DNA from: Lachnospiraceae bacterium
Lineage (GTDB): Bacteria; Bacillota; Clostridia; Lachnospirales; Lachnospiraceae
Reading direction: 5' to 3'
Assembly (NCBI GenBank): GCA_024698555.1
Contig: JAILRI010000151.1
Location: 1 to 42,821, forward strand
Length of the DNA: 42,821 nt
Below the pieces are notes generated by a model. It had not been told where the DNA came from, searched no databases, and worked only from the letters and a program-made list of their open reading frames with translations. A program made the position numbers and the translations under genes. Of this stretch, positions 21,289 to 40,199 are shown in pieces (position 1 is the stretch's first letter; each line of letters begins with the position of its first letter).

Positions 21289-22425
21289 ATGATGAAAAAC
21301 AAACGTAACTTATTGGGAAAGGTACTGGCTCTGCTTCTTTCGGCAGTGCTGGTGACCGGGATGTTTGGAGGCGTTGCGGCCGAGGCGAAGGAGATCTCGA
21401 TCCCGCCGCCGAAGATCAGCATCAGCTACACCAAGGATGACATCGCGGCGAAGGTGACATTTGGCAAGACAAAGGATGCCGACGGCTACGAGATCTATAT
21501 ACTGGGCATGGGCGACATGTATACGGACTATAAGGAGGCTCCTATAGATTGGGTTACAACAGGTAATGGCGGCTTCAAATTTACTCAGAAGGTGGAGCAA
21601 AACGGCAAGAAGAAACGTACCGTGACTCTCACCATGCTTTCGCCCGGAACCTACAAGATCAAGGTCCGCTCATATAACGAGAAAAAGTACGGAGCGGTAG
21701 TCTTCAGTGAATACACAAAAGAGAAGACTTTTACTGTAAAACAGGCTGCTCCCGGTTATAAATCAAAATATGACTTTTCAAAAGTGAAGAAGGGGGATGT
21801 CATTACCTTCGGCGCTTTTGAGCAGGACGGTGATTTTTCCAACGGCAAGGAGCCCGTTGAATGGATAGTGCTGGACAAGAACAAGAAGCAGATGCTGGTC
21901 ATGAGCAGGAACGCCCTTGACTGTATTCCTTATGATATGCCCAGCGAAAACACGAGCGAATATTACAGGGCGAGGACCTGGGAGATATGCTCGCTTCGCA
22001 AATGGCTGAACAGCGAATTTTATAACGCGGCGTTTAACAAGGCGGAACAGAAGCTGATCAAGACCACCACCGTTGAGAATTTTGACAATGTGATCTCAAA
22101 GGTTTCGGGCGGTGATGATACAAAGGACAAGGTATTCCTTCTTTCACAGCTTGAGATGATCAATTCCGATTACGGCTTTGCGGAAGAGTATGATACCCAT
22201 GACGAGGCAAGACGCTGTGTACCTACTGCCTACGCCATATCTCAGGGGGCGTACTCGACGATTGGGTATCAGGAAACCGAAAGACACTGCTGGTGGTGGC
22301 TGCGCTCACCCGGAAGCATCGAAACAAAGGCAATGATCGTGGGTATTCCCGGCAACCTGGACGACGAGGGAGTAGCGTCCGCCATGATCGCCGTACGTCC
22401 CGCGATGTGGATATCGGTGAAGTAA
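21289..22425 (+). CDS. Secreted protein with DUF6273-like domain
   Basis: Signal peptide MMKNKRNLLGKVLALLLSAVLVTGMFGGVAAEA; fibronectin-like middle; ITFGAFEQDGDFSNGKEPVEWIVLDKNKKQMLVMSRNALDCIPY...WWWLRSPG. Confidence 0.85.
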   Translation: MMKNKRNLLGKVLALLLSAVLVTGMFGGVAAEAKEISIPPPKISISYTKDDIAAKVTFGKTKDADGYEIYILGMGDMYTDYKEAPIDWVTTGNGGFKFTQKVEQNGKKKRTVTLTMLSPGTYKIKVRSYNEKKYGAVVFSEYTKEKTFTVKQAAPGYKSKYDFSKVKKGDVITFGAFEQDGDFSNGKEPVEWIVLDKNKKQMLVMSRNALDCIPYDMPSENTSEYYRARTWEICSLRKWLNSEFYNAAFNKAEQKLIKTTTVENFDNVISKVSGGDDTKDKVFLLSQLEMINSDYGFAEEYDTHDEARRCVPTAYAISQGAYSTIGYQETERHCWWWLRSPGSIETKAMIVGIPGNLDDEGVASAMIAVRPAMWISVK

Positions 22426-22516: not shown

Positions 22517-22680
22517 CTAGTACATCGATCGCGAAATAACTGGACTAATGCGCCGAATGCTTGCCCGAGAGTACATGTCTAAAAACGCAGACGTAGCGGG
22601 CTACGGCGAGGCTTTCAGGCGTGTGCTATCGCTAAAGCCGTCAAGCATTCGGTCCAGTTATTTAAGAAGCGATGTACTAG
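22517..22680. repeat. Intergenic inverted-repeat element (long imperfect terminal arms)
   Basis: Left arm 22517-22563 ctagtacatcgatcgcgaaataactggactaatgcgccgaatgcttg; right arm 22642-22680 is its reverse complement except a small variable block and an 8-nt deletion (taatgcgc). Confidence 0.88.
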
Positions 22681-22756: not shown

Positions 22757-23776
22757 ATGAGCAGTATCAAAATGATCGCACCCAAGCTGGATAAAATGCC
22801 CTGGCAGGAAAGACCTGAAAAAATAGTTAACGCGCCTGTATGGCGTTACAAGGAGAACCCTATAATCAACCGCAACCCCGTGGAGGGCGTGGCACGTATC
22901 TTTAACAGTGCCGTAGTACCTTACGAGGGCAAGTTTATCGGCGTATTCCGCGGTGAGCAGACAAACGGAGTCTCGTTTATTTACTTAGGCCGCAGTGAAG
23001 ACGGTATACATTGGAATTTTGAAAAAGAGAAGATCCAGCTGGTGGACGAGAAGGGTGAGCCCTTCATGCCCAACTACGCATACGACCCGAGACTGGTAAA
23101 GGTAGAGGATACCTACTATATCATCTGGTGTACGGATTTCTACGGTGCTTCTATTGGTCTTGCAAAGACAACCGATTTTAAGACGTTTACCAGGCTGGAG
23201 ACTCCCTTCCTGCCTTTCAACCGCAATGCCGTGCTGTTCCCGAGGAAGGTTAACGGGAATTTCATGATGCTGTCCAGACCTTCAGACAGCGGACATACGC
23301 CTTTTGGCGACATTTTCATCAGTGAGAGCCCGGATCTGACCTACTGGGGCAAGCATCGCCATGTGATGGGCAGGGCTCCCGAATGGTGGGAGAGCCTTAA
23401 GATCGGTGGAGGCGCTGCGCCCATCGAGACCAGTGAGGGATGGCTTTTGTTCTACCACGGCGTATCCGGCACCTGCAATGGATATGTTTATTCTATCGGT
23501 GGCGCTATACTGGACCTTGAAAATCCTTCAAAGGTACTCTACAGATGCGACAGCTGGCTGCTTACTCCCGAAGAGTGGTACGAGGAGAGAGGTTTCGTAG
23601 GCAACGTATGCTTCCCGTGCGCTACCTTACATGACCCCGATACCGGACGTATCGCCATCTATTACGGCGCGGCTGACAGTTATGTGGGACTTGCCTTCTG
23701 CTATTTTGACGAGATCGTGGAATATATCAAAAAACACAGCGTGACCCGCTATGATGACGAGTGTATCGGAAGATGA
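22757..23776 (+). CDS. Glycoside hydrolase family 130 (beta-mannoside / mannosylglucose phosphorylase-like)
   Basis: NPIINRNPVEGVARIFNSAVVPYEGKFIGVFRGEQ, SRPSDSGHTPFGDIFISESPDLTYWGKHRHVM, YYGAADSYVGLAFCYFDEIVEYI. Confidence 0.9.
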   Translation: MSSIKMIAPKLDKMPWQERPEKIVNAPVWRYKENPIINRNPVEGVARIFNSAVVPYEGKFIGVFRGEQTNGVSFIYLGRSEDGIHWNFEKEKIQLVDEKGEPFMPNYAYDPRLVKVEDTYYIIWCTDFYGASIGLAKTTDFKTFTRLETPFLPFNRNAVLFPRKVNGNFMMLSRPSDSGHTPFGDIFISESPDLTYWGKHRHVMGRAPEWWESLKIGGGAAPIETSEGWLLFYHGVSGTCNGYVYSIGGAILDLENPSKVLYRCDSWLLTPEEWYEERGFVGNVCFPCATLHDPDTGRIAIYYGAADSYVGLAFCYFDEIVEYIKKHSVTRYDDECIGR

Positions 23777-40148: not shown

Positions 40149-40199
40149 CGGGCAAGCATTCGGAGCATTAGTCCAGTTATTTCGCGAACGATGTACAAG
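40149..40199. repeat. Solo arm of the 22517-22680 element, inverted orientation
   Basis: cgggcaagcattcggagcattagtccagttatttcgcgaacgatgtacaag matches the reverse complement of 22517-22567 at 48 of 51 positions by eye. Confidence 0.9.

Follow-up and report, generated by a model that had tools for sequence, protein, structure and literature searches.

A dispersed miniature element of Lachnospiraceae with IS630-type ends and a conserved hairpin core that also occurs between ISAzo13-type ends

The window analysed here is one entire contig, 42,821 nucleotides (nt) long, of a Lachnospiraceae metagenome-assembled genome (MAG; 275 contigs, 94% complete, 7.9% contamination). Between two of its genes lies an imperfect inverted repeat of 164 bases, which raises the question of whether such a repeat is a mobile element, a structured RNA or a combination of the two. 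The evidence argues for a combination: the explanation that, taken as a whole, is held here with high confidence is a miniature inverted-repeat transposable element (MITE) mobilized by the IS630 family and carrying a conserved hairpin module that is selected as a single strand. Judging from sequence comparisons, the repeat is almost certainly a non-autonomous transposon, with transposition as part of its explanation.

The arms (47 nt on the left, 39 nt on the right) flank a self-pairing core and differ from each other by an internal 8 nt (TAATGCGC) and by one block, ATCGCGA versus CTTCTTA, exactly as an earlier reading made from the letters alone (the sequence-only reading) had described. The plus strand, folded as RNA, has a minimum free energy of -70.7 kcal/mol (z -6.4), and none of 200 shuffled sequences was as stable. 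The sequence-only reading took the repeat either for something MITE-like or for a structured RNA family, and not for a terminator. Both identifications are supported, the former by dispersed copies, by an empty site and by terminal inverted repeats (TIRs) in common with IS630-family elements that are autonomous, the latter by a covarying hairpin with strand-specific wobble pairs; a terminator can indeed be set aside, the sole terminator-like match being weak and at chance level.

A dispersed element with IS630-type ends

The genome to which the window belongs contains at least 40 scored matches to the element (94-99% identity), with unrelated flanks; homology between copies ends sharply at CTAG on both sides. 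The 24 different left flanks that were read correspond to at least 24 distinct insertion sites; the 57 core matches in this genome include duplicates at contig ends and cannot be read as a number of physical copies. Contig ends that overlap by 137-141 bases contain many of the copies, a pattern that a repeat breaking the assembly graph would produce. Copies with these ends are referred to as class I, and those with a second, unrelated set of ends as class II. The features in the window are as follows.

22517-22680, plus strand: whole element including its two CTAG edges (dispersed copies, sharp flank edges, empty site in a relative)
22520-22677: element proper, between two TA dinucleotides
22518-22519, no strand: left TA of the CTAG target, putative first copy of the target duplication (edge statistics from 71 class I copies, empty site, IS630 behaviour; PMC2170065)
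22678-22679, no strand: right TA of the CTAG target, putative second copy of the target duplication (same basis as the left TA)
22518-22545, plus strand: left TIR, TAGTACATCGATCGCGAAATAACTGGAC (pattern matches both ends of the autonomous IS630 elements L118 and L135)
22652-22679, minus strand: right TIR, reading TAGTACATCGCTTCTTAAATAACTGGAC on that strand (ends of L118 and L135)
22550-22646, plus strand: conserved structured core of about 97 nt, found in IS630-type and ISAzo13-type elements (88-copy alignment, cross-class conserved columns, covariation)
22585-22611, plus strand: apical hairpin motif ACGYAGRCGTAGCGGGCTACGNYGAGG, where conservation is highest (apical-motif scan of species genomes, 88-copy alignment, cross-class columns)
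40149-40199, minus strand: truncated second copy in the same window, left end only, diverging after about 51 bp

The window element itself is short and non-coding and bears TIRs; it lies between a gene for a DUF6273 protein (ending at 22425) and one for a GH130 mannooligosaccharide phosphorylase (starting at 22757). Its ends recur in two other genera on autonomous partners of 1292 and 1291 bp (L118 and L135; 77% identical to each other), whose 395-residue protein matches the IS630 transposase model NF033545 (E 2.5e-66 and 8.2e-68) and Pfam DDE_3. Relatives of this transposase, often cut at contig ends, were present in 17 of the 55 genomes tested, and 15 of those 17 also bear the ends. Dispersed copies, ends belonging to transposase-encoding elements of other genera, and an empty site with a target duplication inexact by one base together mark the repeat as a bacterial MITE.

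CTAG flanks both sides of 51 of the 71 class I copies. In the variants TTAG/CTAG (three copies), ATAG/CTAG (one) and CTAG/CTAA (four), only the outer base differs, which fits a TA duplication within a preferred CTAG target. The 4-bp CTAG duplication considered by the sequence-only reading is disfavoured, since the TTAG and CTAA variants alter one side alone; the duplicated target, as read from these edges, is most likely the inner TA of the preferred CTAG. The target of IS630-family elements such as ISY100 is TA, which is duplicated on insertion, the ends being irregular now and then in vitro (PMC2170065); among the references of the same paper is one whose title reports a preference of IS630 for CTAG (Tenzen and Ohtsubo 1991). 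Edges other than CTAG are often CCAG or CTGG, each a single transition away, and possibly reflect mutation or repair at CTAG sites.

Empty sites, which the sequence-only reading had proposed to look for along with further copies and covariation of the arms, are represented by one in Blautia-group genomes: the occupied sequence is GGA-CCAG[element]CTAG-ATC (G681), the empty one GGA-CCAG-ATC (G309). The flanks are 97% identical, and the occupied site is a net 161 nt longer. Among relatives from the genus of the window's genome no empty site was recognizable, the flanking intergenic DNA being too diverged.

Within its own genus the element is absent from most genomes, and one has a relative with 74-89% identity; relatives in the same range occur in three further genera of the family. 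A search with the end pattern was positive in 39 of 397 family genomes, spread over 38 genera, and a scan of species genomes for the apical motif gave at least 105 loci, and those hosts that are named belong entirely or almost entirely to the Lachnospiraceae. Among 392 sampled genomes from the order, only the window's own and three more, likewise Lachnospiraceae, contain the core. Hosts of relatives include Blautia wexlerae, Coprococcus catus and [Ruminococcus] faecis. One copy from another genus (L141, in genome G409 of genus g74) agrees with the window's copy in 162 of 166 columns, reflecting either recent horizontal transfer or binning contamination.

Searches for the element in plasmids gave no matches, and those in phages gave only partial matches, in two unannotated faecal contigs. 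Short contigs labelled 'viral' or 'Bacteriophage sp.' have a copy at an end or close to it (L296, IMGVR_UViG_3300012677_000087; L425, MT837746.1; MT838414.1). In L296, which encodes three serine recombinases, the 76-bp terminal direct repeat is the element core, and this contig was probably ended or falsely circularized by the repeat. These elements break assemblies: many contigs of the window's genome terminate within a copy, and copies also form the boundaries of some 'viral' contigs.

Internal-deletion derivatives were seen at L055 (around 1279-1345), in the left flank of L045 and at L054, some of them abutting or overlapping other copies at a common CTAG. Several copies, such as L025 (C34), L058 (C247) and L003, lie at or inside terminator-like inverted repeats beside gene ends.

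A hairpin core between two sets of ends

A search based on the core recovered the same core between ends of the form GGAACTGTnnnnAAATWA (GGAACTGT; class II), unrelated to those in the window. The same ends delimit ISAzo13-family elements (PF07592, E to 3.6e-128): when pairs of the ends were sought, they were found inverted and 1.30-1.35 kb apart, most with matching TTA or TAA flanks. The N-terminus encoded by L301, a partly masked element, matches NF033519. Of 17 class II MITE copies, 13 are flanked by the same 3-bp TWA on either side. By sequence, a core of about 97 nt is therefore shared by elements with two unrelated end sets, IS630-type (TA) and ISAzo13-type (TWA), and a single genome, SRR13428092_bin.28, holds it in both (L212 and L253 versus L206 and L266). 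The tree of the core requires at least six changes between end classes, three of them forced by well-supported branches; several independent switches are nevertheless not claimed, as a single class II clade is not rejected (approximately unbiased test, p 0.32), and one switch is.

IS4/IS5-type transposases (PF01609) were considered as class II partners and rejected, no fetched locus having matching ends around such a gene. A class II end pair 1303 bp apart in strain D16-51 (L327) proved to be two separate elements with a sensor-kinase-like gene between them. The genome of this strain (G449) has several hundred end matches overall, in elements of many lengths, among them perfect palindromes of about 38 bp with ISAzo13-type ends (L330:90-135).

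Across the classes, the conserved letters include AAAAACG.AGGCGTAGCGGGCTACG..GAGG and internal-loop motifs: apical-loop and internal-loop letters are nearly invariant, and the adjoining stems change. In 45 diverse copies drawn for covariation, 94.8% of pair cells are standard, compared with 77.6% in shuffled and 34-42% in slid controls, and both sides have changed in 44 of 59 pairs. Covariation beyond both controls is joined by strand-specific wobble pairs, as in a structured RNA. The plus strand is the better-folding one in each of 56 representatives with <90% identity, averaging -83.5 against -65.8 for the minus strand. When pairs found by folding either strand were followed along the core tree, 120 changes led to or from G.U and 41 to or from A.C. 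On the alignments, then, the core is the best-conserved part of the element, neither a passive spacer nor a leftover of an insertion sequence (IS).

Selection on the core

The excess of G.U over A.C points to a single strand, RNA or single-stranded DNA, as the object of selection, since selection on double-stranded DNA, or correction of one arm by the other, would treat both kinds of change alike. The core is thus probably selected as a single strand, and on balance RNA is favoured as the form in which it is selected. Elements consisting of little but TIRs exist (the 38-bp palindrome of L330 in strain D16-51 and the 63-bp element of L055), so the core is probably dispensable for transposition.

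In the mechanism proposed, the inverted ends of about 28 bp would be bound by a DDE transposase that belongs to the IS630 (Tc1/mariner) family and acts in trans; it would excise the element and insert it into TA, preferably within CTAG, duplicating the TA. The conserved hairpin module of about 97 nt also lies between ISAzo13 ends, which go with a TWA duplication. Read-through from a neighbouring gene would transcribe the plus strand, which would fold as one long hairpin, and this hairpin might act in cis on transcripts, through processing, stability or insulation, so as to make insertions tolerable or useful. Such a specific cis role as a structured transcript is the leading guess, and a doubtful one. 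It is conceivable, with slightly better prospects, that the unit of selection is the RNA-like hairpin module itself, selfish or useful, functional when transcribed and switching among whichever DDE ends, IS630 or ISAzo13, are active.

Several observations weigh against this combined explanation. The window's genome yielded no IS630 or ISAzo13 transposase in the searches made, although this MAG is incomplete and multicopy ISs assemble badly. The lone empty site requires one substitution (CCAG on the left, CTAG on the right) for an exact duplication; the edge letters fit duplication of TA with a preference for CTAG, but TA reads the same on both strands, and the only empty site has CCAG. Copies are intergenic and in any orientation; the upstream gene is codirectional in 28 of 67 cases, which amounts to no orientation bias, and no promoter above chance was detected within the element, so its transcription is inferred. 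Finally, the strand asymmetry could also arise from selection on single-stranded DNA.

This last point defines one of the alternatives, in which the hairpin is selected as single-stranded DNA, for instance on the lagging strand, where it would aid recognition, replication or transposition, as in REP/RAYT or IS200/IS605 systems. The asymmetry extends to the outer arms (42 G.U versus 13 A.C changes), and folded DNA, too, tolerates G.T better than A.C. However, the partners identified are DDE transposases acting on double-stranded DNA, derivatives with TIRs alone exist, and no HUH transposase was linked to copies, though no HUH search was made; we regard this alternative as rather improbable. Less improbable, but still unlikely, is an ordinary MITE and nothing more, whose core looks conserved through recent spread between genera and whose compensatory changes stem from arm correction by template switching. 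The near-identity of copies within the genome, the close match in another genus, insertion in any orientation and the lack of an Rfam match are all as this would have it. Arm correction, by contrast, preserves Watson-Crick pairs on both strands and predicts no G.U excess on one of them, and this explanation fits poorly with loop letters that stay nearly invariant amid changing stems and with a core common to elements with unrelated ends. The strong covariation and conserved motif might also suggest a stand-alone RNA gene family that is not mobile; sharp, inverted, IS-like ends, unrelated flanks, many copies per genome and direct TWA duplications make this extremely improbable, and as the sole explanation it is refuted by the empty site.

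Relation to known repeat families

MITEs are usually regarded as deleted transposons with an interior that drifts freely. In the present family it is the interior that is conserved, pairing in a strand-specific way and lying within two unrelated end sets, so that the question of selected functions in bacterial MITEs becomes testable, with a defined motif and in common cultured gut bacteria. No earlier description of the element was found in the literature searched, and it has no Rfam family: up to an E-value of 1, none of the Rfam covariance models matched the window region, and matches in eight relatives were all far below the gathering score.

The repeat unit of pneumococcus (RUP, mobilized by IS630-Spn1) is similar in being an intergenic repeat (107 bp) with IS630-like ends, a TA-containing target and proposed movement in trans (PMC2229807, PMC3049150). 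Compared by description only, it differs in hosts and length, whereas the present core is kept across many genera and also occurs on ISAzo13-type ends. Pneumococcal BOX elements are likewise small mobile repeats with extensive transcript structure and IS-like ends (ISSpn2; PMC3049150); again by description, they are set apart as modular (boxA, boxB, boxC) and streptococcal. Correia/NEMIS and ERIC elements are palindromic, intergenic and 100-160 bp long, with TA ends and long-hairpin transcripts that affect mRNA (PMC2229807). They belong to other hosts and are distinguished here by description rather than by sequence comparison. No Correia/NEMIS- or ERIC-like element is known in which a single conserved core is found with the ends of two different transposase families. 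The role guessed for the core, as the leading possibility, would resemble that of ERIC or NEMIS transcripts (PMC2229807), which does not imply membership in those families. With IS630 and ISY100 the window element shares the presumed transposase class and the probable TA target, but it has no transposase gene and an unrelated interior; the ends of the ISAzo13 family and its 3-bp TWA duplication are found on class II relatives, whereas the window copy itself is IS630-type. The element represents a new MITE family of a known kind, unusual in that a core probably selected as a single strand is common to two transposase vehicles.
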